Positions 5,496-52,671 of a stretch of DNA of 64,000 nucleotides are shown piece after piece (position 1 is the stretch's first letter; every line of letters starts with the position of its first letter). The stretch lies in contig JAGSHN010000032.1 in NCBI GenBank assembly GCA_029855935.1, positions 1 through 64,000 on the forward strand. The letters run 5' to 3'. The translations under genes were made by a program, and so were the position numbers. Below the pieces are notes generated by a model, which was given only the letters and a program-made list of their open reading frames with translations, did no database searches and was not told the DNA's origin. Origin of the DNA: Candidatus Thorarchaeota archaeon (GTDB lineage Archaea > Asgardarchaeota > Thorarchaeia > Thorarchaeales > Thorarchaeaceae).

Positions 5496-5532
5496 AACAT
5501 ATCACTCTTCTTATCAACTGGTCGTTGCAGAG

Positions 5533-6096
5533 ATGCGTGTTCCTGTCTACAAGGTCCTGCTCGTCGGCGATGCAAATGTTGGCAAGTCCAGTATGATTAG
5601 ACGACTTCTGCTCGACGAGTTCGATCCAGACTACAAGGCCACTGTCGGAGTGGACCTTAGTGCGGCTGCGTTGAACCTCGGTCCAGACCGGCCAGTCATT
5701 CTCACGCTCATAGACCTGGGTGGTCAGTCGGACTTCACCGCACTTAGGACACAATACTACAAGGGCGCGCACGCAGCCGTCTTCGTCTTCGATGTCTCCG
5801 ACCGCACGACATTCGATGACCTGGCCTTCTGGTACGAGGGCGTTCGTTCTAACGTCTTTCCCGCAGCAGGCGGCGAGCCTCTCTTGCTAGTGGTGGGAAA
5901 CAAATCCGATGTGCGGGAGTCGCGGGAGGTCTCCTCAGAGGAGGGCGCAGGCTTTGCAAGGCAGATTGGCGTTTCATATATAGAGACCAGTGCCAAGACC
6001 GGACACAACATCACCGAGCTATTCGAGATGGTGGCAGAGCAGGCATACGAGCGGTATCCACCGAGGCCGCCTGTCAAAGAAGTTGGTGACGTCTGA
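5533..6096 (+). CDS. Ras-like small GTPase 1 (Rab/Arf-like features)
   Basis: This 187-aa small GTPase has all G motifs: P-loop GDANVGKS (12-19), a candidate switch I Thr in KATVGVD (about 36-41), G3 DLGGQ (61-65), G4 NKSD (123-126) and G5 ETSAK (151-155). G3 has Gly-Gly-Gln as in Arf rather than Ala-Gly-Gln as in Rab/Ras, while G4 and G5 are Rab-like. No C-terminal cysteine is present, so prenylation is unlikely. I chose the ATG at 5533 because the open frame upstream (to 5188) overlaps the divergent radical SAM gene and is not GTPase-like. Expanded small GTPases are characteristic of Asgard archaea. Confidence 0.9.
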   Translation: MRVPVYKVLLVGDANVGKSSMIRRLLLDEFDPDYKATVGVDLSAAALNLGPDRPVILTLIDLGGQSDFTALRTQYYKGAHAAVFVFDVSDRTTFDDLAFWYEGVRSNVFPAAGGEPLLLVVGNKSDVRESREVSSEEGAGFARQIGVSYIETSAKTGHNITELFEMVAEQAYERYPPRPPVKEVGDV

Positions 6097-6261: not shown

Positions 6262-9099
6262 CTAATCCACAACCTCGGTGGGAAATGCTTTGAACCCGTC
6301 TACCGAATACACTACCTTCTGCTGGGGAACGAGCCTTAGGTTGTTGAATGGATCGGGTATCAGATACGGTCGAATCCCGGCCGAGTCAATCTCGACAACG
6401 AACAGGACGAAGCCCGAGCCGTACATAGCAGCCGAGCGATACTCGTTGTGTGTCATCACGGGGCGCGTCGCACCCTCAATCCCCTTCACCTCGACGCGCA
6501 CTATCTCGCCACGACCTCTACAGAACAGGTCGTATCCCACATTTCTCTTCGACACATCCTCTACCACATAGCCTCGCTCGACATAGTACTGAGTTGCGAC
6601 ATCCATTGCTATGGCCTCCACCTCATGGGGCAGGTGTTTCTCTCTCTCCTCTGTACTCACAACAAGGCCCCCGGCCGCCCGAAAGGCGACCTCGAAGAGG
6701 ACGGTATCATCGGTCACCTCCGCTTCTGTAGGGCGGGTTTGGGTGTGGTCCTTGAGCCGTAGTCTCAGTGTATCCCTCTTGTATGGCAGTAGGTCAGGGA
6801 CGGCGAGTTCGTTCTGCAGGCGTTCCTTCTCCTCCTCCCAGCGGGCCTGAACCCGTTCCAGCCACTCTCTTGAGAGCCTCTGTCGGATTTCCTCCAGAGG
6901 AGTAAACCGAACCGTCACGAGGGGCACGTCAGCGAAGACCGGGACGAGGCTCAATACACCCTGAAGGGTCAGAGCCCCTCCTGGTGTCACGAGGATTGGC
7001 TCCTGATACACTGTCTTGTTTCTCACACGAACACTGAGGACACGAACCTCTCCCCTCATGTCCCTGTCATAGGCGAACTGCACGGCGTCGGGCTCAACTC
7101 TTAGATTCTTTGCAGTCTCAATGGCCGCACGGATGCCCGCGTCATCGAGGGTGAGTCGCCGGACAGCAATGAACTCCGAGGGAGTGTGAACATGATAGGT
7201 GCTTATGACCGAGGAGTCATTCGAATCGGGGAGCGAGCCTGAGGCGTAACCGGCGTCTCTCAGCAGTGCGAGGAACAGACGGATGTCCCCCTCCGACACG
7301 GTGCCGTCAAGGTCAATCTGCGCAGACTGCTGTAAGTCCTCCACGCTCACCACCTGCGACAGCGACATGCTCTGCTCGAGTATCTCGATGACCTGTCTGC
7401 CCGTTTCACGTGTTCTCTTGAAGGCCTCCTCTATCCGTTCGACCACCTCGGTTTCGCCCTCTCCGACATGCGCATGCCGCACGAGGATGTCCACGCTCTC
7501 CATCTCGTCTCCGAAGATGCTGAGGCCCACCTCGCCAAACTCCTCGTTGATGGCCTGCACCTTCTCAAGGACAATCTCCATCACCCGTCGTTCGACTCCG
7601 AAGGCGGGCAGAAAGTTACGTATCTTGAGGACTCTATGCCTCTGACCGAGCCGCCATATCCTCCCGACACGCTGGATGTAGACCACGGGACTCCACGGCA
7701 CCTCATAATTGATCTCTGCGCTGGCGGCCTGAAGATTCAGAGACTCCGACATCGCGTCTGTGCCGAGCAGGATGTCAATGGTATTGTCCACAGCGAAGCT
7801 ATCCACAATACGCTGACGTTCCTCCAGTGAGACCTCGCCTGTTATCTGATATACTCTATAACCCTCCTGTTCGAGTACCCCTGCGAGATACCTCACTGTC
7901 TCGAGAAAACCCGTGTAGATGAGACACTTGTGCCCCTCTTCCCTCAGCTCGGCAACAGTTTCCAGCAGGCGTCTGCACTTGCTGTCCCGAGGCATCCTCT
8001 GAATGAGTTCGCGCCCCATCTCCAGCACGGGACGGAGGAGGCTCAGCTCGGTTTCTCTGGCCCCCCTCTCCTCAGGAACCATCCCGAGAAGCGCCTCGAC
8101 TTCCTGATCTGTCAGCTCCTCTCCTGAATAGAGTTTCTCCGTGATGTCTTCAAGGGCCTCCGACTCAAGTTCCACGCTCTCGGCGCCGAGTAGACGCAGT
8201 CTGCGCCTCTCAAGGAGTCGCACTCCGGCACGAATGCTGGAGGAGATGGCGCGCCCAATGAGGATAGCAATGAGTGCGCCCGCCCCCGAGGAGTTCCAGT
8301 GCGACTCGGCATATCTCTCTGCACTCCTGTAGAAATCCTCCTCGTACGCTGTGACAGGACACTCCACAACGGCCTCGTCAATCTCTTGATCGAACAGCGG
8401 ATGGTCGTTGCAGTCGAGCGCGGTGCGCTTCAGTCGACGGATGATGAGTGGCTCGGGAGCGATAATCCTCCTCCGGTACTCAAACCTGTCCGTGTTCCCA
8501 TCGTGCGGTGTTGCGGTCAGTGCAAGGAGACTCTTGACCCGCTGTGTGAGACTCTCCAAGAGTCGCCCCCTAAGATTCCCGGGGCTGACCCTATGGAACT
8601 CGTCTACCACCAGCAGGTCCCACGACTCCTGCTCGAAGAGCTTCCGCCAGCGACTCTTCTTCACGGTGTCAATGGAGGCAATCATTAGGTCGGCGATGCG
8701 GGGACCGTCGGTGTCGGGGACAAATCTCTCAAAATGGAGCGCGAACTTATCGCGGAGTTCCTCTTGGAACTGAGCGAGGACACTCGGAGGAGTCAGTATC
8801 AGTATCCTCGACTCCCCCAACGACAGGAGCTCCTTGATGATCATACTAGCAAGAATGGTCTTTCCCAGTCCGGTTTCGTAGGCAATGAGCGCACGGATGC
8901 TGCCTGTCCTGCGGTACTCTCTCATTAGGTACGCAAAGTCGTACAGCTGGTACGGCACGGCATCAATCTTTGATGAGAGGAACACTTTCAGCGGGTCGTA
9001 CCTGATCTTCGCATCGAGATAGTGGGCCATAAAGGCCGCCATGAACTTGGCGTACTGGGTGTAGGCGGTGTCTACATCGTCACTGTTGTTTGTCATCAT
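6262..9099 (-). CDS. SNF2/SF2 helicase with C-terminal DUF3883-like nuclease fold (defence)
   Basis: This 945-aa protein (from ATG 9099) has an SF2 core: Walker A GLGKT (77-81), DEFH (166-169), TATP (195-198), then LIYTGF, GTDAMSESLNLQ and QRVGRIWRLGQ of the second RecA domain. The C-terminal about 100 residues contain GYD-x12-EVK (D857, E870, K872) followed by NEYRSA, the layout of DUF3883, a PD-(D/E)xK-related domain. It probably moves along or remodels DNA, with possible nuclease activity. ATG 9099 (or 9096) is preferred over the open frame to 9321 because it follows an AGAGGGGG site and overlaps the methylase stop by only 20 nt. It is the last gene of the minus-strand operon. Confidence 0.85.
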   Translation of the reverse strand: MMTNNSDDVDTAYTQYAKFMAAFMAHYLDAKIRYDPLKVFLSSKIDAVPYQLYDFAYLMREYRRTGSIRALIAYETGLGKTILASMIIKELLSLGESRILILTPPSVLAQFQEELRDKFALHFERFVPDTDGPRIADLMIASIDTVKKSRWRKLFEQESWDLLVVDEFHRVSPGNLRGRLLESLTQRVKSLLALTATPHDGNTDRFEYRRRIIAPEPLIIRRLKRTALDCNDHPLFDQEIDEAVVECPVTAYEEDFYRSAERYAESHWNSSGAGALIAILIGRAISSSIRAGVRLLERRRLRLLGAESVELESEALEDITEKLYSGEELTDQEVEALLGMVPEERGARETELSLLRPVLEMGRELIQRMPRDSKCRRLLETVAELREEGHKCLIYTGFLETVRYLAGVLEQEGYRVYQITGEVSLEERQRIVDSFAVDNTIDILLGTDAMSESLNLQAASAEINYEVPWSPVVYIQRVGRIWRLGQRHRVLKIRNFLPAFGVERRVMEIVLEKVQAINEEFGEVGLSIFGDEMESVDILVRHAHVGEGETEVVERIEEAFKRTRETGRQVIEILEQSMSLSQVVSVEDLQQSAQIDLDGTVSEGDIRLFLALLRDAGYASGSLPDSNDSSVISTYHVHTPSEFIAVRRLTLDDAGIRAAIETAKNLRVEPDAVQFAYDRDMRGEVRVLSVRVRNKTVYQEPILVTPGGALTLQGVLSLVPVFADVPLVTVRFTPLEEIRQRLSREWLERVQARWEEEKERLQNELAVPDLLPYKRDTLRLRLKDHTQTRPTEAEVTDDTVLFEVAFRAAGGLVVSTEEREKHLPHEVEAIAMDVATQYYVERGYVVEDVSKRNVGYDLFCRGRGEIVRVEVKGIEGATRPVMTHNEYRSAAMYGSGFVLFVVEIDSAGIRPYLIPDPFNNLRLVPQQKVVYSVDGFKAFPTEVVD

Positions 9100-11740
9100 C
9101 CCCCTCTGCCGCCTCCTCCGCATACGAGTCAACTGGATATTCTCTGATGTCGTGAATGCTGTCCCACTGCTCCACGAACCTTGCGCAGACCCTGCCCTCC
9201 TCGTAGTTCGTGTTGGTCTGAGCCATCTGAGCAAGTGACTGGATAACACGTAGAATTTTCTTCTGCGGATACGGCGACTCCCTGATAAGGCTCTCTGCAG
9301 AAACCATGCCGTGTCGGACATAGTCGCGCAGGACTATGTGTACGGCATCAATCAGGCTGTGAGGCATCACAGGGTCAACACCGTTGACCTCGAAAGGTCC
9401 CCTTTCTGAGAAGTCGAGCAGACGACACCTGCTCCGGTCGTCAGGCAGACGACTGATGATGCCTGCGACACTAGTCTCTTCTACGCCCAGCGCCTTGAGC
9501 ACTTGATTGAGTTCTGTGAACGGGAACTCATTCACCCCTGCGTAGCGGAACCAGAGGTAGAGTGCGGTCTTGGGGTCCGCATCGTGAACGCCGAGACCGT
9601 GACTCGCAAAGAGGTCGATCACGTACCTCTGACCGAGTTCGAGTGCAAACTCGGCCGTGCTTCTGTTGAACGACCGTATATTCGAGTAGCGCGTTATCAC
9701 CTCAAGGATGACACCCGTGGCTGCGACCAGTAGGCTCGTCCTGTCTTCGCCATAGGTCTCTAGGAGGGAGGGGAATCGCGCGGAGAGCTTCTCGCGAATC
9801 TCATCTTCGAGGTCGAGCAGGTCAATTGTTCGGCCGGACTGACGCTTCCTTGCAGTTATCAGAAGAGAATGGAATACAGGCGACTTGTCGAAGAATATTG
9901 GCAGTGACCCACCCTCGGTGCGCAATGTGTGTGTGGAAGTCACCTGAAACCCCGCAGTTCTGAGAGACTCGATCACGTATTTCCAGCCTGTGACACGCCT
10001 GTGGACGTAGAACATGACGAGGAGTCCGTCGTCCTCTAGCAGTTCATAGAGTCTATGTATTGCAAGACGCATCCTCGACTCGAAATCGGCTTCGGTACGG
10101 CGTGTCTTGGGACTCATACCTACACTAAGTTCCTCGCTTGTTTCAGGTATCGCCGAGATGTTGAGAAGGTTTCCAGCCACCCTACTGTACCATACCTGAT
10201 AAAACTGCATCAGCTCAGGGTATTGGACATCGTTATAGTATGGGGGATCTGTTACAATCAGCGAGAATCTTTGAGCTGGCTTCCATGACAAGACAGACTC
10301 ATTGACTATCGAGATTCTTGGACTCATACGAGGATGTTCGAGACTCTCACTTGGGCCACATAGAGCAGTGATGGCGTACTCCAAACCTCTCAATACCCCC
10401 TCAATACTGTTGAGGAGAGAACCTGCTGTCCTAGCAAACGGATTGACCTCTACGTGATTCCATATCATTCCAATCCGGCGAGTCTTGAAGGCGTATCTCG
10501 TCGCTTTTGCTCCACTGTCCCAAGAGGCGGCCCGGTTATTGCACATAAGGTGTCTTGAGAAAGTCATCAAGAGGTAGGTACCAACTGCGGCCGCGTAGTC
10601 GGGATCCCGTTTGCGGATACTCTCCACCGATTCGTGAATCCCTCTTGCCATAAGCGCGTGGACGAGAAGCTGCCGCGGGCTAAACAGTCTGTACCAGTAT
10701 CTCAGATACCGACGGGACCATATCTCATATGGCATCTCCTCACTTGGGATGTAGGACGCCAGTTCATCCATGTTCTGGCTCAACAACTCTTGGGCAGCAT
10801 TGAGCGCCGCGTGGTCTTGCTCTGTAGGCAGCACAAATCGTCCGTCCTCTAGGTAAGCTGCCAAGAGCATCTCCCGCGCGTTTCTTGAGATATCGGCCAC
10901 AATATGGTCGTTTGAGATTTCCATGCCGCAGCCGGGATAGATACACCGGCCCTTGCCACCACCACAGTTTCCTTTCTGAGGTTTGGAACCAGCTACTATC
11001 TTGAAGACAAGATCGTCCCCCTTCGTTTCATAGGCCAAGGAAATGCCTCTGGCCGCGTCCAGCCGCCAGTTGTGCACAAGTGGTACCAACCTCCTACAGT
11101 GGGGACACTCAACGGCCCACGCATAGAAGTACACGCGCGGCCGAACTCCATCGTGGGGGGGATACAAGTTGGACAGACTGTCCTCCAAGTTTCGGAATAT
11201 CCGCTCGGCACAGTCCCTGACATCAGAAAGGAGTTGACTCGTGCCATCCTGACTATGAATCTGGCGGCCATATCTCAGGGGGTACTGCAAGGTACCCCTC
11301 ATGATCAGACACGCAATGGGATTGTAGTCCAGTGCGACAACATTCAATCCGAGACGCAATGCCTCGAACGGGATTGTACCCGCACCTGCGAAAGGATCCA
11401 GTACAACAATATTCCTATGATGGCCCGTGTCCCTCACGGCCCTCACCAGAGATTCAGGAACTGTCTTGTACGCCCGACGTCTTAGGGCGGAATCGACACC
11501 GAGAAGGTCAACTACCTTCGAAGGTTTGTCAACATCATTTGGGGATAGGAGTGCAGCTGCAATGGCCAGTCGTGCCATTATGAGCGGTTTTCTCGTGAAG
11601 TAATGATGAAACTCCACGATTGGTGGGCCCGCCCTTTTCTCCTTCTCGACCTCCTTGTTGAGGAGTGCAACAGGTACCCCTGCCTCGAGGAGGCTCCGTG
11701 GCGGAGTTTCAATAGTGTTTTCTCCCTTGCCCCGCCTCAC
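9080..11740 (-). CDS. DUF1156-type adenine-specific DNA methylase, copy 1
   Basis: This 886-aa methyltransferase begins at GTG 11740, overlapping the preceding stop as GTGA. An N-terminal HYFTRKPL segment precedes motif I DPFAGAGT (115-122), then NVVALDYNP. A four-cysteine putative zinc site sits at C212/C215 and C266/C271. Catalytic DPPYYND follows at about 498-504 (DPPY class, N6-adenine or N4-cytosine). A long C-terminal region (about 600-886) may recognise target or partner. By family these methylases sit with DUF499 ATPases and helicases in defence islands, presumably marking self DNA. It is close in sequence to the copy at 15034-17712 along its whole length. Confidence 0.88.
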   Translation of the reverse strand: MRRGKGENTIETPPRSLLEAGVPVALLNKEVEKEKRAGPPIVEFHHYFTRKPLIMARLAIAAALLSPNDVDKPSKVVDLLGVDSALRRRAYKTVPESLVRAVRDTGHHRNIVVLDPFAGAGTIPFEALRLGLNVVALDYNPIACLIMRGTLQYPLRYGRQIHSQDGTSQLLSDVRDCAERIFRNLEDSLSNLYPPHDGVRPRVYFYAWAVECPHCRRLVPLVHNWRLDAARGISLAYETKGDDLVFKIVAGSKPQKGNCGGGKGRCIYPGCGMEISNDHIVADISRNAREMLLAAYLEDGRFVLPTEQDHAALNAAQELLSQNMDELASYIPSEEMPYEIWSRRYLRYWYRLFSPRQLLVHALMARGIHESVESIRKRDPDYAAAVGTYLLMTFSRHLMCNNRAASWDSGAKATRYAFKTRRIGMIWNHVEVNPFARTAGSLLNSIEGVLRGLEYAITALCGPSESLEHPRMSPRISIVNESVLSWKPAQRFSLIVTDPPYYNDVQYPELMQFYQVWYSRVAGNLLNISAIPETSEELSVGMSPKTRRTEADFESRMRLAIHRLYELLEDDGLLVMFYVHRRVTGWKYVIESLRTAGFQVTSTHTLRTEGGSLPIFFDKSPVFHSLLITARKRQSGRTIDLLDLEDEIREKLSARFPSLLETYGEDRTSLLVAATGVILEVITRYSNIRSFNRSTAEFALELGQRYVIDLFASHGLGVHDADPKTALYLWFRYAGVNEFPFTELNQVLKALGVEETSVAGIISRLPDDRSRCRLLDFSERGPFEVNGVDPVMPHSLIDAVHIVLRDYVRHGMVSAESLIRESPYPQKKILRVIQSLAQMAQTNTNYEEGRVCARFVEQWDSIHDIREYPVDSYAEEAAEGDDDKQQ

Positions 11741-12162
11741 CGTCGCATATTCCTCCGCGAACGCATATGGATTGTCTTGAAGGCGCGTATTGCGTCCCGG
11801 CCATAGGTATTGTACTGCCAGTTCCAGAATATTGCCTCCTCAAGAGTGATTCGACGCATGGCCTCGAGAAACCGGGGCGCCTCCTGTGGCGATCTCAGAC
11901 TATTGAGAACCTTCAGTGCCAGTCTGAGACGATATCCTCTTTCGCGTTCGTTTCTGTCACGCGACGCCCGCTCCACGGCTTCAAGGAGTGGCACCCTCCA
12001 GTCCCGAACGGCTCCCATCACATTCTGCTCGGACAAGAAGTGTTGAACCAGCCGTACGGTCTGTGCAGTGCGGTGGAGTGTGTACGTGCAGTTGTCATAA
12101 AGTGCCGTTGTTGCACGAGGAATACGACCTGATGATGATGGGGCCCGGTATGATGTTGCCAC
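11737..12162 (-). CDS. Unrecognised 141-aa protein within the defence operon
   Basis: I do not recognise the family. GTG 12162 overlaps the last base of the ATPase stop (TAG), and a GGAGG sits about 10 nt upstream inside the ATPase gene; the stop overlaps the next methylase start. Such tight coupling says it is a true operon member. The protein is basic, with helical LLEAVERASRDRNERERGYRLRLALKVL and a conserved-looking aromatic patch IFWNWQYNTYGRDA near the C-terminus, followed by an Arg-rich tail. It might be a small DNA-binding or specificity subunit. That is inference from charge and position only. Confidence 0.7.
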   Translation of the reverse strand: MATSYRAPSSSGRIPRATTALYDNCTYTLHRTAQTVRLVQHFLSEQNVMGAVRDWRVPLLEAVERASRDRNERERGYRLRLALKVLNSLRSPQEAPRFLEAMRRITLEEAIFWNWQYNTYGRDAIRAFKTIHMRSRRNMRR

Positions 12163-14849
12163 TATGACCCCTCCTCGCGAATGTACAGTCTGATCGTGAC
12201 TCTTGTTCCTGGCAGGAGGTGCGCGCCTCTCCTCGACATCCACTGGGCCAGTTCTTTCACCAGATTTATCTCGCTGATATCTCCCGCAACTATGTTGCCC
12301 GTCAGGGCCCCGCGAAACTCGAACTCCGCCCGCGCCTCTCCTCGATGTTCCAGAAGCACTCTCGTGATACGTGAGTCGAGCTCTGTGAAGAAGTTTGCAA
12401 TCGGGACCTCTACAGACTCTAGTCGCTCGTCCGCCCGCGCGGATGTCAACGTGGTTTGACGGTCTGCTGCGGGCGACGACTTGTCGACGGCAGTTTCCTG
12501 GATGGTCGGACTGACCTGCTTCGAGTCAATGGTTGCCACATGCGGACTCTCCGCGGCTGCAGTGATTCTGGCCTCAGCCCGTCTTGTGCGAATCTCGCGT
12601 GCCAGTTCTTCAGTGACAACCGTGTCCCCGTCATGTACGCTGACGTTCATCTCTCGATAGTGCAGTACCAGCTCTGTGTCGTCGGCGGATGTGAAGTCGC
12701 CCTCAACAAGGCCGATCACACCCTGATAGACCGCCTCCGCAACCATCGACCGGACCTGGCTGGGCGTTGCGAAGGGGATTCCGAGCATCGAGTCGACATC
12801 CTCAAGGAGTTGACGCACCTGCACGTGGCTTCTTGCACCTATCAGCGCAGTGACATAGGTTCCTATGTCCATGTTAACAGGGTCGAATACCTTGTCGACC
12901 TCTCGGAGCCGCGATACGACGGTCGCGCACATAGTCCTGTTTTGGACAGGATGGACAGAGCACACTCGTTTCTTTGACTGGCTCAGATACTTCATCTTGG
13001 TGTACATTCCTCTAAACGTCTGGAGCGCCTGCGCCTCTTTAGCCTGTGCAATGGATTCGGCCTCCCTCTTCTCTCGCTTGTCACTGAGAGTCCTCATAAC
13101 GCGTAGTGCTGCCAGGTGATGTCTGCTGAAGTCCTCAAGTGGCCGCCCCATAGTGACATCGGGAATCATCACCACGACCGTGTTTCTCCGTCTTCCTGTT
13201 ATCTCCAGCATATCCTCCACAATTGCGTCGACGTTCTCCCAGTAGAGGGGGACAACGATGTTAAGTTTCCCGTGGGAAGGGACTAGGCCCTTGTGGTGAC
13301 GAAGGAAAAGACACACATCATCCTCTCCAGAAGAGGTCTCAAAGACGGTCGGGAACAGCGTTTTCTCCACATACTGTCGCACTTCTGTACTGCTTATCTG
13401 ACCCTTGCGATGGCGTATCAGATTAGGGACATTAGGTCGTGACTTGAACCAGTATCTCTTCTTGCCGGGATCTCCTGCCTGAGAACTCCAGAGAAATGTG
13501 GAGTATTCCATAAAGAAGGTTTCGATGATTCGTGCCATGTCGGCTTTTCCAACAATGTCAGGGAGGCAGCGGAGCAACTCATCGGGAGTAGCACCCTGCC
13601 TATCCGGGTCGGGGTGGAGCGAGTACAGGAACAGGGCGGCTGTTGCCCGCCCAAAGATACCGAAGCGCTTCCCACTATCCGCCTCACGCGCAGCGGTCAC
13701 CACATCCTTTGTGACGGCCTGTCTCAGTCCGGTCCCGAAGACGTTGGGATCCGTCAGAATCGCCACAAGGTCAGGATCATCAAAGAGGAGCTCAGCAGGG
13801 GATATCATCAGGCTCTCCACATCGTCCACGTGACGTAGAATACCTTTTATCCCCAGCGCGACGACCTTCAACGCATCCCGAGTCTGTTGGAAATCCCGGT
13901 ATAGGGACACTCGAGAATACAGAACATCTATGAGCGCGGGATGAAAGGGGTAGCTGCCGATGCAATCGAGTCCGGTCTTCTTTCCGACCTCGTTCTCCAC
14001 CGCCTTGGCCAGTTCTGCATCAATATAGTCCACAAGTCGTTTCTTCAGAATGGCTGTGAAGTCCGCCTCACCTACGGGTTGAATTGGCTGTGTGACACGC
14101 CCGAATAGCGACGCCATATCGGACTCATCGGTGGTGGTCGCAACAGCCTCGATAATGCCTGAAACGTAAGCCGCCTCCTCATCGTATACGCCCGTCCCCT
14201 TGGCGACCGCAACGACTAGAAGACAGTTGTCTGTCGAGTTTACAGCCTCTATGAACGTATGAAGATGTGCCTTCTCTTGTGTCTTCTGCTTGTCGTCAAG
14301 CTTTGCCGTGTACACGACAATCTCGTCGATGAGAAACACAACTGGTCGGCCCTCGTCCGACAACCGCTTGCGAGTTTCCTCCTTTGTGGGTGCCAGATAC
14401 TTCCCCAACACTGGGTCCTTTGTCAAAGGATATTGCAGGTTGTGGCCGTCTACCGCGACCACTTTCGCGTCCGGGACCTCCTCGATGCCAATGGTCGCCA
14501 GAATCTGAGGGTCTGGTACCCGCCGAGATGTGAATACGTGGTACAGCATCACCAGCAGGTGACTCTTCCCCCCGCCAAAGCCTGTCGCCAGATGGATGAC
14601 AGCTTTTTTTCCGATGCCCGCGGTTCGTGCGAGCGACCATTGGAGCACATCGAGCATCCGCGTCGTCAACACAGTTATCTCAAAGAACCTGTTTGGGTCA
14701 CGATACTCTGCGTGGCCGCGTCCCCGAATTACCTCTGAGAAGTCGACCTCGAAGACTTCGGGCGAGAAGTCCTTCAGCCAAGGCTTGAACCGAAGTCTTC
14801 GACTCTTGATTGCTTCGCCAAGCGATACAGCTTCGCTCCCTCTTACCAT
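12162..14849 (-). CDS. DUF499-type AAA+ ATPase (defence system core)
   Basis: From ATG 14849 this is an 895-aa P-loop ATPase with Walker A GFGGGKS (90-96, context HLATGFGGGKSHLL) and Walker B VVFLIDEIVVY (D175/E176), the DUF499 signature. Later regions include a possible sensor region (VVAVAKG) and a basic helical section rich in REKREAESIAQAKEAQ. The start was chosen because AAAGGAGGC lies about 12 nt upstream. An in-frame GTG at 14885 has no such site. DUF499 proteins pair with DUF1156 methylases and helicases in defence islands. It probably provides the motor or the nucleotide-dependent switch. Confidence 0.85.
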   Translation of the reverse strand: MVRGSEAVSLGEAIKSRRLRFKPWLKDFSPEVFEVDFSEVIRGRGHAEYRDPNRFFEITVLTTRMLDVLQWSLARTAGIGKKAVIHLATGFGGGKSHLLVMLYHVFTSRRVPDPQILATIGIEEVPDAKVVAVDGHNLQYPLTKDPVLGKYLAPTKEETRKRLSDEGRPVVFLIDEIVVYTAKLDDKQKTQEKAHLHTFIEAVNSTDNCLLVVAVAKGTGVYDEEAAYVSGIIEAVATTTDESDMASLFGRVTQPIQPVGEADFTAILKKRLVDYIDAELAKAVENEVGKKTGLDCIGSYPFHPALIDVLYSRVSLYRDFQQTRDALKVVALGIKGILRHVDDVESLMISPAELLFDDPDLVAILTDPNVFGTGLRQAVTKDVVTAAREADSGKRFGIFGRATAALFLYSLHPDPDRQGATPDELLRCLPDIVGKADMARIIETFFMEYSTFLWSSQAGDPGKKRYWFKSRPNVPNLIRHRKGQISSTEVRQYVEKTLFPTVFETSSGEDDVCLFLRHHKGLVPSHGKLNIVVPLYWENVDAIVEDMLEITGRRRNTVVVMIPDVTMGRPLEDFSRHHLAALRVMRTLSDKREKREAESIAQAKEAQALQTFRGMYTKMKYLSQSKKRVCSVHPVQNRTMCATVVSRLREVDKVFDPVNMDIGTYVTALIGARSHVQVRQLLEDVDSMLGIPFATPSQVRSMVAEAVYQGVIGLVEGDFTSADDTELVLHYREMNVSVHDGDTVVTEELAREIRTRRAEARITAAAESPHVATIDSKQVSPTIQETAVDKSSPAADRQTTLTSARADERLESVEVPIANFFTELDSRITRVLLEHRGEARAEFEFRGALTGNIVAGDISEINLVKELAQWMSRRGAHLLPGTRVTIRLYIREEGS

Positions 14850-14930
14850 CCTGTTGATAGCCTCCTTTCCAGAATGCGGACTCACCTACTGGCCGTGATC
14901 CCGGACTTGTGCAGTCAGAACAAACGGCAG

Positions 14931-14944
14931 CATATAATATTTCG
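14931..14944 (-). promoter_or_regulatory. TATA-like box for the ATPase-methylase-helicase operon
   Basis: Read on the minus strand, CGAAATATTATATG is the most AT-rich run in the 184-nt gap between methylase copy 2 and the ATPase. It sits about 80 nt upstream of ATG 14849. This suggests that the four-gene part of the locus has its own promoter, separate from methylase copy 2. Confidence 0.45.
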
Positions 14945-15033
14945 TTGCTGGTGCCTGGACCTATACCCTTCGAGAAACAATATCCCGCATCTCTGTTTCA
15001 GAATACCCTACGAGTCGCAACTAGAAAAGTCGG

Positions 15034-17712
15034 CTATTGACAACCATCGATACTATCCTCTGTTTGGTCCCAGTTCTCAATGTCATCGTCTAGCGCTGAC
15101 TGTATGAACCCGTCAACAGGGTATGTCCGGATGTTATGGATTGCCGCCCACTGGTGCACGAACCGTGCGCATATGGTTCCTTCGTCATAGCCCGTCGTAG
15201 TTCTACTCATCTTTGCCAGCGATTCTATTGTCTTGAGGATACTCTCCTGTGGATGTGGGAGCACTTGTATGAGGTTCTCAGCAGCCACGATACCATTCCG
15301 GACATACTCTCTGAGAACTGCGTGTACCGCGTCGATTAGGCTCTGTGGCCGGAGTGATTCGGCGCCGCTATTCTCGAAGGGCCCTCTCTCCGTGAAGTCA
15401 AGAAGACGGACTGTGCTGCGCTTGTCCGTCGTACGGTCGATAAGATCTGAGATGACCCATTCTTCAACTCCTAGTACTCTGAGTACCTGATTGAGCTCTG
15501 CTGATGGGAACTCGCTACGGCCAGCGTAGCGGAACCAGAGGTAGAGCATAGTTCTCGGATCGGCCTGATGAATATTGAGACCATACTTGGCGAATAGCTC
15601 GATCACGTATCTCTGACCAATCTCAAGGGCGTAGTCTGAGGTTCTCTTCGTGAATGATCGTATCTCAGAGTATCCTGTGATGACCTCTAGCACAACGCCC
15701 GTCGCTGCGACTAACAGGCTTGTCCTATCCTCTCCATAGGTTTCGATAAGTGACGGAAACCGTCGAAGCAGTTTTTCACGGATAGCTTCTTCCAACTTCA
15801 AGACGTCAATGGTTTGGTCACTGTGCCGTTTGCGGGCTGTTATCAAGAGCGAGTGGAAAACAGCCGACTTGTCGATGACAATGGGTCCTGTTCCGCTCTC
15901 TGTGCGAAGGGTATGAGTGGAGGTCACCTGAAAGCCGGCATTCCGCAGGGCCTCGACGACGTACTTCCAACCAGCCACACTTTTGTGAACATAGAACATG
16001 ACCAACAGTCCGTCGTCTTTCAGGAGGTTGTGGAGCTGGTGAATCGCGACATTCATCCGTGACTCGAACTCGGCGGTTGAGCGGTTAGTTCTCTTGCTTG
16101 ATCCCACGCTCAGCTCTTCGCTTGTTTCAGGAACAGGTGGGATGTCCAGCACGTGTCCCAAGATTCGACTATACCACACCTGATAGAATTGCAGCAGTTC
16201 TGGATATTGGACATCATTGTAGTACGGCGGGTCAGTTACGATAAGGTCGAACTTCCGAGAAGTTTCCCAAGAAAGTATGGACTGATTGATTACTGTCACG
16301 TCGCCAGCTACATCCTGTTGCTCGAAACTACCGTTTGGGCCACAGAGGGCTTCGACTGCATACTCGAGCCCACTCAATACATTCGCAATACTGTTCGAGA
16401 GCGCGCCAGCTGTCTTGGCAAAAGGATTGACTTCGCAGTGATTCCACATCATACTAACCCTACGCGTTGAAAACGGATGCGCTATCTTCCTAAACCCGCT
16501 GTCCCAAATCGTTGCCCGATTGTTGCGCATAAGATGTTTCGAAAAGACCATCGACAGGTATGTTCCGATTACTACAGCATAGTCGGGATCCTCTTGGGAA
16601 ACCCGGTCAACAATCTGGCGAATCTTCCTTGCCATAAGCGCGAGTACAACCAACTGGCGGGCGTTGAATAGCCTGTGCCAATATAGGAGGTACTTTCGAG
16701 CCGGTATCTCGTGGGTCATCTCCTCTGTAGGGATATAGGGTGACAAGGTGTCCATATTCTGTTCCAGAAATTTCTTTGCCCGAGCTAGCGCATCATAGTC
16801 TTCTTTGCGCGGGGTCACAAACTCCCCGTTTTCCAGATAAATGGCTACGAGCATTTCTCGTTCGTTCTGCGAGATGTCTGTCACAACGTACTCGTTTGGG
16901 ATTTCAGTTCCGCAGTCCTCGTAGATGCATCGGGCCTTCCCTCCTCTGCAGTTTCCTCTTACTGGTGTCGGTCCCGTTTCAACACGAAACGTAAGTTGTT
17001 CTCCCTCCGTTCTCTGGGCCAGAACAATGCCCCTGGGTCGGTCGAGATCCCAGCGCTGCATGAGAGGCACAATCCGTTTGCAGTGGGGACATTTGACAGC
17101 CCAAGCGTGAATGTACACGCGCGGTTTCCTTCTTCTATAAGAAGGATAGAACTGCGTCAGCTGTTCTCTTAGGTCCTTGTAGACTTCATTTGCATACTTC
17201 TCTACGTCTGCGATGAGTTGGCTGACTCCACTCCGTATGTTCATTCTGTGACCATATCTTAAAGGGTACTCAAGGGTCCCCCTCATCACGAGGCACGCTA
17301 CCGGATTATAGTCCAAAGCGACTACGTTCAGTCCCATACGTAACGCTTCAAAGGGAATCATCCCCGCGCCTGCAAAGGGATCGAGCATCGCGAAATCTGT
17401 GCCGATTGCCTTGCGAACCGCTTTCAACAGTGCACTTGGCATTCTCCGATACGCACGTTCACGGTTTGTGCGTCCTACGCCAAGTAGCTCAAGAAACTTG
17501 GAAGAGTCTTTCAGCCGCATCGGGGGGAGCAGTGCTGCAGCAATCGCCAGCCTCGACATAATGAGAGGTTTCCGAGTGAAGTAATAGTGCAGCTTTGTAA
17601 TTGGGGGCACTGCGTTCTTTTCTTTCCTTGCCTCCTCATTCACCTCTGCAACCGGCACTCCCGACTCAAGCAGGCTCCGCGCCATCTGTCTGTTTCTCTC
17701 TTCATCGCCCAT
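15034..17712 (-). CDS. DUF1156-type adenine-specific DNA methylase, copy 2
   Basis: This 892-aa paralogue of the methylase at 9080-11740 is colinear end to end. It keeps HYYFTRKPL, motif I DPFAGAG (111-117), the Cys pairs (CPHC and CIYEDC) and DPPYYNDVQYPEL, so it looks catalytically complete. The two differ most in the regions before motif I, around the zinc site and in the last 150 residues. ATG 17712 is preceded by GGAGGGG. It lies 184 nt upstream of the ATPase start. Base composition is slightly more AT-rich than copy 1 by eye. It may methylate a different sequence, act as a heteromer partner, or be a later acquisition. Confidence 0.87.
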   Translation of the reverse strand: MGDEERNRQMARSLLESGVPVAEVNEEARKEKNAVPPITKLHYYFTRKPLIMSRLAIAAALLPPMRLKDSSKFLELLGVGRTNRERAYRRMPSALLKAVRKAIGTDFAMLDPFAGAGMIPFEALRMGLNVVALDYNPVACLVMRGTLEYPLRYGHRMNIRSGVSQLIADVEKYANEVYKDLREQLTQFYPSYRRRKPRVYIHAWAVKCPHCKRIVPLMQRWDLDRPRGIVLAQRTEGEQLTFRVETGPTPVRGNCRGGKARCIYEDCGTEIPNEYVVTDISQNEREMLVAIYLENGEFVTPRKEDYDALARAKKFLEQNMDTLSPYIPTEEMTHEIPARKYLLYWHRLFNARQLVVLALMARKIRQIVDRVSQEDPDYAVVIGTYLSMVFSKHLMRNNRATIWDSGFRKIAHPFSTRRVSMMWNHCEVNPFAKTAGALSNSIANVLSGLEYAVEALCGPNGSFEQQDVAGDVTVINQSILSWETSRKFDLIVTDPPYYNDVQYPELLQFYQVWYSRILGHVLDIPPVPETSEELSVGSSKRTNRSTAEFESRMNVAIHQLHNLLKDDGLLVMFYVHKSVAGWKYVVEALRNAGFQVTSTHTLRTESGTGPIVIDKSAVFHSLLITARKRHSDQTIDVLKLEEAIREKLLRRFPSLIETYGEDRTSLLVAATGVVLEVITGYSEIRSFTKRTSDYALEIGQRYVIELFAKYGLNIHQADPRTMLYLWFRYAGRSEFPSAELNQVLRVLGVEEWVISDLIDRTTDKRSTVRLLDFTERGPFENSGAESLRPQSLIDAVHAVLREYVRNGIVAAENLIQVLPHPQESILKTIESLAKMSRTTTGYDEGTICARFVHQWAAIHNIRTYPVDGFIQSALDDDIENWDQTEDSIDGCQ

Positions 17713-18190: not shown

Positions 18191-19615
18191 ATGATCGAAG
18201 CACTTGAAAGAGGCATCGAGGAAGGTGAACGCCTCGGCGCGGATTTTGTTGAGGCAAGGTTCGAGGATCTTACTCTCCGTACCCTTGAGCGCACTGATGA
18301 TACCTGGCGTGACATTCAGGTGAAGTCGAGAAGAGGCGTTGCCATCACGTGCTATGTTGATGGCACTGCTGGCTTCTCCTTTGCTGCAAGTTCGGATGCA
18401 GCCACAGTTGTCGAGGCGGTCGGGCGGGCCTACAAGATGGCACGGGCATCAGCCTCTGCTGCAATGCTGAAGCTGCCCTTTGACAGAGATGAGCCTGTGA
18501 GTCCGACTCCGTCATACCGCCCCAAGATAGGCGTTCATCCTCGTGAGCGTGATCTGACATACAAGACGGAGCTTGTCAGTCGTGCTGTGGAGACGGCACG
18601 TGAACACGCCAAGAACGTCCGGAACATTCGCGGTCTGTACGGAGAGCTCTATGGTGACAAGGTCGTGGTCAACAGCGATGGTTCCAAGATTCAGTGGGAC
18701 TTTCTCGTGACCGAGCTGAGAGTACGTGTCACCTCCCGCACGGGCAGTGGGGATATGGTGGCAGGTATGGAGGGCTTTGGCGGAACGTTCGGGCTTGACA
18801 GATACGAGACCGAGCCCTACAACCCCGAGAGTATGGGCAAGGTCGCGGCCGAGCGCGCGAACGAACAGCTTGAGGCGCGTCCCTGTCCAGCTGGCAAGTT
18901 CCGGGGACTGATTGAGAATCGGCTTGTCGGCGTACTGGCACACGAGTCCTTCGGTCATCTCAGTGAGGCCGATTTTGTCGTCACAGGTGGCTCGCCACTG
19001 ACTGGCAAGGTCGGCGAGCGTCTCGGTACCGAGCACGCGACGATCATCGACTCAGGCATTGTGGACATAGAGTCCTACGGTGGTCTGTGGGTTCCATTTG
19101 ATGACCAGGGCACACCCGCAAGCGAAACCGTGGTCCTTGAGAGAGGAGTACTGAAACACTATCTGCACAATCGTGGTACGGCGAAGAAGCTTGGCCAGAG
19201 ACCCACCGGCAACGCACGGGCTGTGAACTTCACGTTCCCACCGATTGTCAGAATGACGAATACCTATTTCGCGCCCGGTGACCTCACTGAGGAGGAGGCC
19301 ATCGAGCTGGTGGGAACTGGTGTCTATGCCATCCAGACCTTCGGTGGCCAGGTACAGGGTGACGGCAGCTTTCTGTTCAAGGCTCTCAGGGGGTACTGGA
19401 TTGAAGACAGAGAGATCAAGTACCCCATTCGGGAAGTTTCGCTCTCAGGCAACGTTCTGGATCTTCTGGGCAAGGTCGAGGGCGCAACAAGGGACCTGCG
19501 ACTCTACAGTGGGTACTTCGGTGGCTGCGGGAAGGGCGGACAGGCGCCTCTGCCTGTCGGACTTGGCGGACCGAAACTGGTCATCGACGGCATCACATTT
19601 GGAGGGAAGTCATGA
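18191..19615 (+). CDS. tldD: TldD-family metalloprotease subunit
   Basis: This 474-aa protein carries the TldD signature HESFGH at 251-256 (HExxxH zinc site) and a C-terminal GCGKGGQ segment whose Cys contributes the third metal ligand in the family. TldD and TldE form a heterodimeric peptidase that degrades unfolded or modified peptides in bacteria and archaea. The next gene, tldE, overlaps its stop by a few bases, so the two are translationally coupled. Start ATG 18191 follows a GAGAGAGGA site about 6 nt upstream and a TATA-like box at about 18129. It appears complete. Confidence 0.95.
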   Translation: MIEALERGIEEGERLGADFVEARFEDLTLRTLERTDDTWRDIQVKSRRGVAITCYVDGTAGFSFAASSDAATVVEAVGRAYKMARASASAAMLKLPFDRDEPVSPTPSYRPKIGVHPRERDLTYKTELVSRAVETAREHAKNVRNIRGLYGELYGDKVVVNSDGSKIQWDFLVTELRVRVTSRTGSGDMVAGMEGFGGTFGLDRYETEPYNPESMGKVAAERANEQLEARPCPAGKFRGLIENRLVGVLAHESFGHLSEADFVVTGGSPLTGKVGERLGTEHATIIDSGIVDIESYGGLWVPFDDQGTPASETVVLERGVLKHYLHNRGTAKKLGQRPTGNARAVNFTFPPIVRMTNTYFAPGDLTEEEAIELVGTGVYAIQTFGGQVQGDGSFLFKALRGYWIEDREIKYPIREVSLSGNVLDLLGKVEGATRDLRLYSGYFGGCGKGGQAPLPVGLGGPKLVIDGITFGGKS

Positions 19616-45966: not shown

Positions 45967-46983
45967 TCATTCGTGTGTCCCCAACCCTATTCTTGCTCCG
46001 ATCCGTCTGTTGATGGCGACCTCCCCGATGTCCGCACAATATGATGCTATCCTCTCAAGGTGCATTAGCAATAGGACCATTCTCGGTGACTTCTCTCTTC
46101 TTGACGAGCCCATCTTCTCAAGCCTCTTCGCAAGGCTCTCAGCGCTCTCCAGCACTGCGATTGCTTTGTTGTCGCTGGTGGAGAGTGACTGCTCTCCACC
46201 ATCTCCGATGTCGAAGAACGTCCTCGTTGTGTTCTCGTAGACCTCAGTCAACGACTTTGCTACGCGGGCCACTGATGGCCGGACCGTCTTCATAGCCCTC
46301 AGCTCTGAGGCGGCACCGCAGACGTGATCGGCAATTCGCTCGACGTACTTGGCTGCCAGGCTGAAGTTGAGGCAGTCGGACGGGGAGATTGCTATTCTCT
46401 TGGCGTAGCTCAGGTCTTGAAGGGCGAGATGGCAGAGTCGCTCGACGAAGTACCTGTGACGGTCCACGTCTTCGTCCCGCGCGATGATCTTTGACGCAAT
46501 GCTGACCTCACCCGTGACCATCGCATTGACCAACCCGTTGAGCATGTACTTTGCTGTTGCGAACTGACGCTTGAGGATGGGCTTGACCATTTGTTTCTCG
46601 CTTGTGTCGCTCACCACGATACTGGCACTGTGTTCGTCGAGAATCTCAAACCCGGGCAGCCTCCTTATCCATCCGCTGATCTTCTCTCTCACGCCTATCG
46701 CGATTGGCTCCGGGAAGACGATGTTGACAGAGTCGGCCCCTATCACGTACGCGCCAGTCAGCAGGTTCTCAATGCGCGACGGATTGACATCCGGCGACGA
46801 TATTGTGAGTCCCCCTCCCTCGGTCTCGCGGACAGATGCTGGAAAGAGCATCAGCGCACCATCAGGGCCCTGTTCCATTCTGATCTCAGCGTTCTTGCTG
46901 AGCCTGTTTCTTCTGACCCACTCCCGCGGTAGGTACACATAGTAGGAGTTTCTCACGAGGTGAAGTCGCCTTGTCACTGTCAT
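45967..46983 (-). CDS. AbrB/PhoU fusion regulator of phosphate uptake
   Basis: This 338-aa protein starts with an AbrB-type hairpin (about 3-45: RRLHLVRNSYYVYLPREWVRR) and continues with two PhoU helical bundles (about 130-335) containing acidic metal-binding stretches such as KYVERIADHV and LMHLERIASYCADIGE. Such fusions are found in archaea next to pst genes and are thought to sense phosphate and bind the pst promoter. It is divergent from pstS across a 389-nt region. ATG 46983 follows GGAGAT; the frame to 47031 lacks family similarity. Confidence 0.85.
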   Translation of the reverse strand: MTVTRRLHLVRNSYYVYLPREWVRRNRLSKNAEIRMEQGPDGALMLFPASVRETEGGGLTISSPDVNPSRIENLLTGAYVIGADSVNIVFPEPIAIGVREKISGWIRRLPGFEILDEHSASIVVSDTSEKQMVKPILKRQFATAKYMLNGLVNAMVTGEVSIASKIIARDEDVDRHRYFVERLCHLALQDLSYAKRIAISPSDCLNFSLAAKYVERIADHVCGAASELRAMKTVRPSVARVAKSLTEVYENTTRTFFDIGDGGEQSLSTSDNKAIAVLESAESLAKRLEKMGSSRREKSPRMVLLLMHLERIASYCADIGEVAINRRIGARIGLGTHE

Positions 46984-47372
46984 CGGCGTATCTCCTCTTG
47001 GCGATTGTACTCGACTCGTCTCGGCCCGCACGCAGCAACGGGACGCTCCCTCCTGTCATCCGCCCCCTTTTCCCTTTTCCTATCCGTGGTGCAGTCCCCG
47101 CCACATGCCCGTACCAGCCGGCAGGTACGTGCTAGTGCACTCGCCGTACCATCCCCTCACCCGCCCTCCTCTGTGGCGTGGGCGTCCAAGTCGGCAACCA
47201 AGGCACGGGGCGCTGAAGCCTGACGCGCTCCCCGCTCGTACCGGTGCGCGTCTAGTACGTCTAGTACAAGCATGCCTTGGCAGTGAAGTGGATGCAGAGA
47301 GTTTAATACCTGCCTTTCCGGGGTCTGGACCCCAGAGTAGGGCCGTCTGTCGGTCCCGAGGATGGATAAGAG
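46984..47372. promoter_or_regulatory. Divergent phosphate-regulon control region
   Basis: The region between the PhoU/AbrB regulator and pstS holds no credible gene. It has six GTAC tetramers (47111, 47125, 47146, 47238, 47255 and 47264), an imperfect inverted repeat GTACC...GGTAC at 47111-47128, and a tandem repeat GTCTAGTAC GTCTAGTAC at 47250-47267. The palindrome GGGGTCTGGACCCC at 47320-47333 straddles the likely start of the pstS transcript. TATA-like TTTAATA lies at 47302-47308. These are good operator candidates for the AbrB/PhoU regulator. Confidence 0.55.
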
Positions 47373-48419
47373 ATGGGACTGAAGACCACTTGCCTGGTGT
47401 TCGTTGCTGGGATAGTCCTTGGACTCGTCATAGGGCCTGTTGTGCTGGCGCCATCCTCCGGGGGTACTAGTCACACGATCACTACAGCAGGCTCGACGAC
47501 GGTGTTTCCGCTCTCGCAGGAGTGGGCGACGCACTTTCATGATGACCATCCGACGTTTACCGTCAGTCCCAACACCGGAGGTTCGGGACTTGGGCAGAGC
47601 CAGGTGGCGGCTGGTCTGGTCGATATCGGAGCATCGAGCTCGTATCCCGAGCCTGCCTACTGGGAGAATAATCCGCACGTCAAGATACTCCCAGTGTGCG
47701 CGGACGGTGTCGCGGTCGTTGCCAATCCGGCTGTGAACGGCACCGTCCTGAGGCTTGACTGCGACATGGTCGTCGCCATGTTCCAGCGCGAGGTCACGAC
47801 GTGGGAGGAGTTCGAGAGCACCTTTGGCGTGGAGATTCAGCAGACCGGTCCCATCAACGTGTACGTCCGTTCTGACGCCAGTGGGACCACGTCGACCTTT
47901 GCGCGCTGGCTGGAGACAGCCGACGAGAACACCAATCCCAACGGTGCTGAGTACGAGTGGACGCTGGGACATCACGAGTCGGTCTCGTGGCCAGAGGGCG
48001 TGAACTCCGTCGATGGTAATCCTGGGGTCGCACTTGGTGTGGCCGATGACCAGAACGGGATTGGCTATGTCGGACTGGCATTCATGGAGGGTCTGACGAC
48101 TGCGCAGTTGTACAACCCGTCAAGCGGGGAGTGGGTGTCTCCCTCGGTTCAGAACGTGCTGAACGCGGTGCCCGAGGAGATGAGTGACCCTGGTGTGGAT
48201 CTGATGAACGCACCAGCACACGACGCCTACCCCATTGCCCGTTTCCTGTACTATCTTGTCAACAGCGATCACCTGCGCTGGCCAGTACTGGTGTTTCTCG
48301 AGTGGGTGCTCGTCCGAGGGCAGGTCTATGTGCCCGATGTCGGGTACGTCCCTATCACGGGCAGTTCGGCTATGACATATGCGCAGCAGGTCGTCAGTTC
48401 ATTAAGCCCCACGGAGTGA
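47373..48419 (+). CDS. pstS: Phosphate ABC transporter, substrate-binding protein
   Basis: This 348-aa protein has an N-terminal signal/anchor (about 5-25, VFVAGIVLGLVIGPVVLA) and a PBP-like phosphate-binding domain with TTAGSTTVFPLSQEW (phosphate loop), NTGGSGLGQSQVAAG, and VYVRSDASGTTSTFARWL. No lipobox Cys is seen, so it is held by its N-terminal helix. It captures phosphate outside the cell and delivers it to PstCAB. ATG 47373 is 65 nt after the TATA-like box. Confidence 0.94.
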   Translation: MGLKTTCLVFVAGIVLGLVIGPVVLAPSSGGTSHTITTAGSTTVFPLSQEWATHFHDDHPTFTVSPNTGGSGLGQSQVAAGLVDIGASSSYPEPAYWENNPHVKILPVCADGVAVVANPAVNGTVLRLDCDMVVAMFQREVTTWEEFESTFGVEIQQTGPINVYVRSDASGTTSTFARWLETADENTNPNGAEYEWTLGHHESVSWPEGVNSVDGNPGVALGVADDQNGIGYVGLAFMEGLTTAQLYNPSSGEWVSPSVQNVLNAVPEEMSDPGVDLMNAPAHDAYPIARFLYYLVNSDHLRWPVLVFLEWVLVRGQVYVPDVGYVPITGSSAMTYAQQVVSSLSPTE

Positions 48420-48572
48420 TGTGGTTCTGAATGATGGAGCAGGAGACGCGCACTGAGATGGTGAAGAGTTGGTGCTCGCATACGATGGTGTCAGATGTTC
48501 TGGGTGCGAACAGACGGTTGCCGCGCTGGGCTGTGTCTCGGGCCCGGCCTGAGTTCGCCCGGAGGCGATGAG

Positions 48573-49598
48573 ATGGTAATGCCCACGATTAGAGAAACTC
48601 TTGCAGCGTGGTCGAGACAGATCTCTGAGAGATACGAGAGTCTGTCTATGCGGCTTCGACGTTTGAAGGACCCAGCACATGTCGACCTTGCTGGGCGAAT
48701 CGGCCTCTTCATCCCAGCGACAACGGCAATCCTCATCATAGTCTTGATTCTGACCTTCCTGTGGTATGAGTCGATGCCAATCCTCACCAGTGATGTGGGT
48801 GGCCCGGCCATCTTTCTCGAGCCGACTTGGGACCCCAACAGAGACCTCTTTGGCATCGGCGTCTTCATTGCCGGGTCGCTCGTCTGCACGGGAATTGCTC
48901 TCGGAGTCGCACTGCCTGTCGGAATCGGAGCCGCGATCTTCCTCAGCGAGTTCTGTCCGTCACATCTTAGGGACGTCCTTCGAATGATCATCGAGATGAT
49001 GGCAGCCGTGCCGTCAATCGTCTACGGTCTATGGGCCTACACGGTGATGGTGCCGTGGATTCGCGACTCGGTGTATCCTGCGGTGTCTTCGAATCCTCTG
49101 CTCGCGTGGGTGCCGTTCCTTCAGGGCCCGACGAACGGCTACAGCGCTCTGGCTGGGGGCCTCATCCTCGCCATAATGCTGCTTCCGACGGTTGTCAGTG
49201 TATCGGATGATGCGCTGAGGTCCGTGCCACGGTCGCTCAGGGAGGCCTCGCTGGCCCTTGGTGCCTCGGAGAGCGAGACAGCCTTGAAGGTCGTACTGAG
49301 GGCGGCGTTGCCGGGCGTGGGCGCAGCCATTGTTCTCTCGCTCGGACGCGCGGTCGGTGAGACAATGGCCGTGCTGATGGTGACGGGCAACTCGCTCACG
49401 ATTCCCTACTCGCTGTTTGACCCGTGCTATGTCATGACCAGCATAATCACGAATCAGCTGGGCTACGCCTTTGTCTTTCCGCTCTGGAGGTCCGCACTGT
49501 TCGCTGTCGCTCTGGTATTGATGCTGATGTCAATCTGTTTCACAGCGATAGCCAAGGTGCTGATCTGGAGAGGCACGCGGATAGGAGCAGTGGTCTGA
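48573..49598 (+). CDS. pstC: Phosphate ABC transporter permease
   Basis: This 341-aa permease has six transmembrane helices in a BPD_transp (MetI-like) core, with the EAA-type loop SLREASLALGASESETALKVVLRAALPG (about 230-255) that couples to the ATPase. Start ATG 48573 follows GGAGGCGATGAG. It lies about 150 nt after pstS and 9 nt before pstA. It pairs with PstA in the membrane channel. Confidence 0.92.
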   Translation: MVMPTIRETLAAWSRQISERYESLSMRLRRLKDPAHVDLAGRIGLFIPATTAILIIVLILTFLWYESMPILTSDVGGPAIFLEPTWDPNRDLFGIGVFIAGSLVCTGIALGVALPVGIGAAIFLSEFCPSHLRDVLRMIIEMMAAVPSIVYGLWAYTVMVPWIRDSVYPAVSSNPLLAWVPFLQGPTNGYSALAGGLILAIMLLPTVVSVSDDALRSVPRSLREASLALGASESETALKVVLRAALPGVGAAIVLSLGRAVGETMAVLMVTGNSLTIPYSLFDPCYVMTSIITNQLGYAFVFPLWRSALFAVALVLMLMSICFTAIAKVLIWRGTRIGAVV

Positions 49599-49607
49599 GG
49601 TGATGGA

Positions 49608-51347: not shown

Positions 51348-51357
51348 GTGGAGACAG

Positions 51358-52599: not shown

Positions 52600-52634
52600 G
52601 ACGCACCACCGCGGCCAGGTGTACAGGCGTGAGG

Positions 52635-52643
52635 GATAAAACC
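52635..52643 (-). promoter_or_regulatory. TATA-like box for small GTPase 2
   Basis: GTTTTATCC on the minus strand lies about 36 nt before TTG 52599. The same core TTTTATC precedes GTPase 3. Confidence 0.45.
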
Positions 52644-52671
52644 TTCGTTCCTACTACGCAGACGCGCCTCT

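Follow-up and report, generated by a model that had tools for sequence, protein, structure and literature searches.

Gene sets of one kind, in which a DUF499 ATPase is combined with a DUF1156 methyltransferase (MTase) and a helicase, have been named four times. They were designated in 2013 as HEPN-DUF499 neighbourhoods, as cited in PMC12839542. An archaeal operon composed of COG1743, DUF499, an SNF2 nuclease and an EVE protein was reported in Bell 2020 (PMC7641849), and DUF499 is described there as ORC/Cdc6-like. Hma was described as a three-gene operon in Payne 2021 (PMC8565338). Type-1, Type-2 and Type-3 BREX-related (BR) systems, all DUF499-centred, were described by Rakesh and Krishnan in 2026 (PMC12839542), and BR systems as described there carry one methylase.

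A locus with the same core was analyzed in the window, the whole stretch of 64,000 nt under analysis. A reading-frame check showed five intact ORFs on the minus strand. In the order of transcription, they are MTase A (17712-15034, 892 aa), a DUF1156 N6/N4 amino-methyltransferase with the motifs DPFAGAGM and DPPYY, which is the extra copy; the DUF499 ATPase (14885-12162, 907 aa), an AAA+ protein of the ORC/Cdc6-type with the Walker A motif GFGGGKS and LIDEIV; a small protein of 141 aa (12162-11737); MTase B (11740-9080, 886 aa), a DUF1156 amino-methyltransferase in the standard slot between the small protein and the helicase; and an SWI2/SNF2 helicase with a C-terminal NOV_C nuclease-like domain (9099-6262, 945 aa). 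The length of 945 aa counts from the ATG implied by an earlier sequence-only reading of this DNA, and the longest ORF is 1019 aa. That reading had placed the same five genes, and their positions and motifs were recovered here.

With Pfam, both methylases match DUF1156 and N6_N4_Mtase (DUF1156 e-value 9.4e-11 for MTase A), and the ATPase matches DUF499 (8.7e-18); no HEPN domain was found in the ATPase. The helicase matches Helicase_C (1.3e-22), ResIII (8.3e-14) and NOV_C (4.4e-11). Among the PADLOC models, HmaB matches both methylases (3.4e-47 for MTase A and 3.3e-49 for MTase B) and HmaC matches the ATPase (8.6e-39), and the helicase scores higher with BrxH (6e-63) than with HmaA (2.1e-52). 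The NCBIfam antiphage models of DUF1156 and DUF499 also match, but far under their cut-offs. Homologues of HmaA, HmaB and HmaC are adjacent in the locus, and the tripartite core of the DUF499-centred BR systems (DUF499 ATPase, DUF1156 N6-MTase and SNF2 helicase) is present. Judged from these family assignments, the kind of system is already known as PADLOC Hma or DUF499-centred BR. The sequence-only reading had suggested a defence set of the Hma kind and proposed profile searches of the five proteins; run with Pfam and PADLOC, these assign the core to the HmaA, HmaB and HmaC families and not to unrelated ones.

The ATPase and small-protein genes are joined at TAGTG, where the GTG start of the latter overlaps the stop codon of the former. 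The small-protein and MTase B genes are joined at GTGA, and the MTase B and helicase genes overlap by about 20 nt. A purine-rich Shine-Dalgarno-like stretch precedes each of these three tight junctions. All three overlaps had been read correctly before, as had the coupling of four of the five genes. On this arrangement, translational coupling is limited to the four-gene block ATPase-DUF7680-MTase B-helicase, and MTase A is the uncoupled gene, separated from the ATPase by a gap of 148 nt. The gap holds a TATA-like stretch, AAATATTATAT (14932..14942, minus strand), 57 nt before the ATPase start; this match from a pattern scan weakly suggests that the four-gene block has its own promoter. An 87-aa ORF just upstream of MTase A (17975-17712) matches no family and is unlikely to be a gene. 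An assembly artefact was ruled out by the 61% identity of the MTase copies, their location on one 105-kb contig, and the clean flanks.

The host phylum is Promethearchaeota (Asgard), as had been supposed from the letters. By synteny and the empty site, the cassette is flanked by a Ras-like GTPase gene on the left (5530..6096, plus strand, start approximate) and a TldD gene on the right (18191..19615, plus strand). The spacing between them in the window is 12.1 kb and holds the five genes only. Without the cassette, it is 328 bp in a genome of the same genus (G002), and 130 bp and about 134 bp in two genomes of the same family (G008 and G006, respectively). Since the flanks adjoin in these three relatives, all five genes were probably acquired together, with independent losses as a possible alternative. 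No further close copy of a methylase or of the cassette was found in the host genome (2.97 Mb, 32 contigs), no close methylase in three genomes of the same genus, and no near-identical locus in pattern scans of genome contigs and viral contigs for MTase A and for the A+B pattern. Ras-like small GTPase genes, which are typical of Asgard genomes, are seen in the window at 52078-53121 (minus strand) and at ~5530-6096 (plus strand), two of them adjacent. An apparent phosphate-transport operon (PstS, PstC, PstA, PstB and PhoU-like) lies at 47373-52050, and a PhoU/AbrB-like regulator is encoded on the other strand at 45967-47031.

The 141-aa protein had been considered an unknown, which did not hold. 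The Pfam model DUF7680 (PF24728) scores 18.2 bits on it (e-value 0.0029), under the cut-off of 24 bits. Plasmid loci of this kind encode a clear DUF7680 protein between DUF499 and DUF1156 (e-values 1e-29 to 1e-47). An HMM trained on these proteins and on relatives of them, with the window protein left out, recovers the latter with the e-value 2.8e-5, and gives 67 bits to the small protein of L063, a locus of a WOR-3 bacterium, which is also similar to the window protein in pairwise comparison. Because of this HMM match, the conserved gene slot and the similarity to the L063 protein, the 141-aa protein is classified from its sequence as a divergent DUF7680.

A census covering loci from 80 genome and 14 viral hits and from 8 plasmids revealed DUF7680 together with the ATPase and MTase in 66 loci, among which L057 and L083 are duplicates of a single record. 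The full order ATPase-DUF7680-MTase-helicase was observed in 56 of those 66. In 63/65 cases, no more than 50 nt separate the DUF7680 start from the ATPase end, the median being an overlap of 4 nt, and the 15 helicase-MTase-ATPase loci in the census all lack DUF7680. By gene neighbourhood, DUF7680 is a recurring fourth component of many such clusters. It is unmentioned in the literature searched, which included the main text of PMC12839542. In one Asgard locus (L237:16027-17256), two head-to-head DUF7680 genes adjoin a helicase-MTase-ATPase set. The gap between DUF7680 and the MTase is a cargo site with very varied genes in L056, L078, L092, L097, L113 and L132, as expected for the reported "Hma-embedded" candidates.

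A Halomonas plasmid shows the order DUF499-DUF3780-DUF1156-PLD helicase, i.e., the Type-2 BR order, and DUF499-DUF3780-MTase was observed in every locus with a detectable core among the viral contigs examined. Thus, DUF3780 fills the slot of DUF7680. A profile alignment of the two families covers 140 columns with the score 30.7 and the e-value 3.3e-4 for a single comparison, but with an hhalign probability of only 38%. Shuffling the profile columns 150 times gave scores of 11.6 +/- 2.1 with the maximum 18.7, and a reversed-profile control scored 20.9 over 20 columns. The confident AlphaFold (AF2) model of the window DUF7680 (pLDDT 86) has three strands followed by five helices, and the model of DUF3780 (pLDDT 81) has three strands, a helix, a strand and four helices. 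Fold searches found no relative of either protein in PDB and no match for DUF7680 among viral structures. A genome and phylum scan for DUF3780 gave no match, and the scan's own controls were likewise unmatched. The profile alignment and predicted folds indicate that DUF7680 and DUF3780 are probable remote homologues. DUF3780 has been proposed as a reader of modified bases (PMC12839542), and by analogy, DUF7680 may have such a role.

The DUF3883-like tail of the helicase had been regarded as unusual. The tail is indeed NOV_C (DUF3883), located at 6379..6621 (minus strand; residues 901-981 of P0001 with Pfam) with the motif GYD...VEVKG, but it is ordinary among Hma helicases, being present in 16/17 helicases tested from loci with the helicase first. 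Helicases from loci of the order ATPase-small protein-MTase-helicase have an N-terminal PLD domain instead (weak Pfam matches, 4/4 scanned), and the L060 helicase matches PADLOC PLD_Helicase with the e-value 8e-70. No PLD match was obtained with Pfam for the window helicase. The window and L063 combine the order ATPase-small protein-MTase-helicase and DUF7680 with an NOV_C helicase. L063 holds the closest relatives found for the core proteins, and it carries ATPase-DUF7680-MTase-NOV_C helicase with a single methylase. In the trees, the window and L063 cluster with SH-aLRT supports of 99 (ATPase) and 100 (helicase), and branch outside both the helicase-MTase-ATPase clade and the ATPase-small protein-MTase-helicase clade, with long branches that leave the deeper placement unsure. 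EVE-like small proteins were recognized by eye in or beside related DUF499 loci (L063:5207-5668 and 12610-13086, and L046:7579-7998).

MTase A and MTase B share 61% identity over 867 aligned residues, far above chance. Outside the window, both are closest to the methylase of L063 (37-39% identity); they are thus paralogues within this lineage. The two stand equally far from the other family members, with 24.8% for MTase A and 24.7% for MTase B. Among the 53 positions conserved at >=93% in the family, the two copies agree at all but one (K577 in A, R in B), and at ~8 positions they share a residue unlike the usual one of the family. The codon identity between A and B at positions 1/2/3 is 68/80/38%, which indicates that synonymous sites are near saturation and that purifying selection appears to act on both copies. 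Both copies look functional from their sequences. Having two full-length methylases was suspected to be unusual, and the comparison agrees: no second full-length methylase is present in any other of about 90 ATPase + methylase loci, read with flanks of up to 10 kb and including some incomplete loci. The apparent double in each of L122, L125 and L138 is a single methylase broken into successive fragments, and the methylases of L052 and L053 are neighbouring orphans of another subfamily.

The identity between A and B is 55% in DUF1156, 66% at motif I, 72% in the catalytic motif IV region, 51-56% in the TRD, and 62% in the C-terminal HTH region. In the TRD, the average is 50-52% for other pairs of the family that are equally identical in the catalytic region, and an excess of TRD divergence between A and B was not seen. 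Since this divergence is no higher than expected, no sequence feature marks a new specificity for A or B. A and B resemble any other diverged pair of the family and speak clearly neither for a shared target nor for a new one, and the two target specificities proposed in the sequence-only reading are possible.

DUF1156-like methylases are also found outside such sets. Neighbouring orphan pairs occur in Asgard genomes at L052:6758-12809, L053:8422-13302 and L231:5509-11723. Orphans of ~700-750 aa occur in many genomes of the host's family (L012-L031, L045, L049-L051), and no ATPase or helicase was seen near them in the neighbourhoods read. A solitary, conserved methylase of the DUF1156 type with ~870-885 aa (family f21: L038, L040, L041 and L242) likewise has no ATPase or helicase nearby.

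The locus likely encodes a defence system that resembles restriction-modification and belongs to the DUF499-centred BREX-related (Hma) kind. The kind is supported by the family matches, the published descriptions, the gene order in 56 loci, L063, and the adjacency of the flanks in relatives. Points against it are the BrxH score of the helicase, which exceeds that with HmaA, the DUF7680 score under the Pfam cut-off, the unremarkable TRD divergence of A and B, and the single methylase of BR systems as described. From the protein families, the DUF1156 methyltransferases would mark the host DNA, the DUF499 ATPase with the small DUF7680 subunit would be the DNA-bound scanning part, and the SNF2 helicase with its NOV_C PD-(D/E)XK-type domain would unwind and cut unmarked DNA, with MTase A as an added paralogue. 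Preferred here, though unproven, is a reading in which each methylase has its own target, be it a separate motif or one strand of a shared asymmetric motif, and both are needed to protect the host; its chance within this explanation is about even. BREX motifs are described as non-palindromic (PMC11341690), hence the guess that the second methylase has a different target or acts on the strand of an asymmetric site that the first leaves unmodified.

A and B may instead share one target, with the duplicate giving dosage or a backup, so that protection precedes restriction or a mutation is survived. The completeness of both copies, their common conserved residues and the ordinary TRD divergence are consistent with such redundancy, and MTase A, lying upstream of a possible promoter before the ATPase, could be made first. 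However, the third-position identity of 38% points to a long coexistence, redundant copies are usually lost, and two full-length copies are kept nowhere else among the loci compared. Redundancy is rather unlikely, though still in play. Less likely still, but also in play, is that the four-gene system is complete by itself and MTase A merely its neighbour, an independent orphan with an epigenetic role or left over from a second system of the Hma type. Its distance, its lack of coupling and the frequency of DUF1156-like orphans without an ATPase or helicase in the phylum would fit, but it is 61% identical to MTase B against about 32% at best to any orphan, and the inserted 12 kb segment contains both methylases. 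A housekeeping or replication-linked modification system, which the ORC/Cdc6-like nature of DUF499 might suggest, is very improbable in view of the patchy presence of the set, its absence from three genomes of the same genus, the empty site, relatives that are carried by plasmids and viral contigs together with cargo and VapBC genes, and the reported defence of HmaA against phage, as cited in PMC12839542.

A wider reading, offered tentatively and itself doubtful, joins DUF7680 and DUF3780 into one family of small ATPase partners in most DUF499 systems other than helicase-MTase-ATPase ones; the locus would then be an undescribed third lineage (DUF7680 with an NOV_C helicase), in which two specialized methylases for different targets or strands serve one restriction machine. 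DUF499/Hma/BR systems are widespread, and the fourth subunit, apparently in two guises (DUF7680 and DUF3780), is a concrete protein to study. The natural two-methylase version gives a handle on how "self" DNA is defined, whether by a single motif, by two motifs or by two strands. What makes the locus valuable is this pair of methylases and, on a wider view, the recurrence of DUF7680 as a subunit that is the probable counterpart of DUF3780.

Compared with Hma of PADLOC and Payne 2021, the helicase, DUF1156 methylase and DUF499 ATPase correspond to HmaA, HmaB and HmaC, whereas the window has five genes instead of three, with two methylases, DUF7680 and the order MTase-ATPase-small protein-MTase-helicase. 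Type-1 BR shares the DUF499 ATPase, the DUF1156 MTase and the SNF2 helicase with a C-terminal PD-(D/E)XK-type domain, and neither PLD nor PglZ was found in the five proteins. The window differs from Type-1 BR, a three-gene set, in the gene order, DUF7680 and the second MTase, and its ATPase and helicase form a deep lineage with L063. The N-terminal Tudor domain of Type-1 BR seems absent from the window helicase, judged from its start close to the SNF2 core. Type-2 BR (DUF499-DUF3780-DUF1156-PLD helicase) agrees in gene order and likewise has a small alpha+beta protein after the ATPase, but this protein is DUF3780 and the helicase is of the HKD (PLD) type, whereas the window helicase lacks PLD/HKD and is of the NOV_C lineage. 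Type-3 BR requires PglZ and iSTAND genes, and none of the five genes between the flanks matches a PglZ or STAND model. The archaeal operon of Bell 2020 has the same three core families, and EVE-like proteins flank L063 and L046, but the window cassette is without a visible EVE gene and has a second methylase. The WOR-3 locus L063 shares ATPase-DUF7680-MTase-NOV_C helicase with the window, and differs in having one methylase and, inside the set, VapBC and EVE-like genes.
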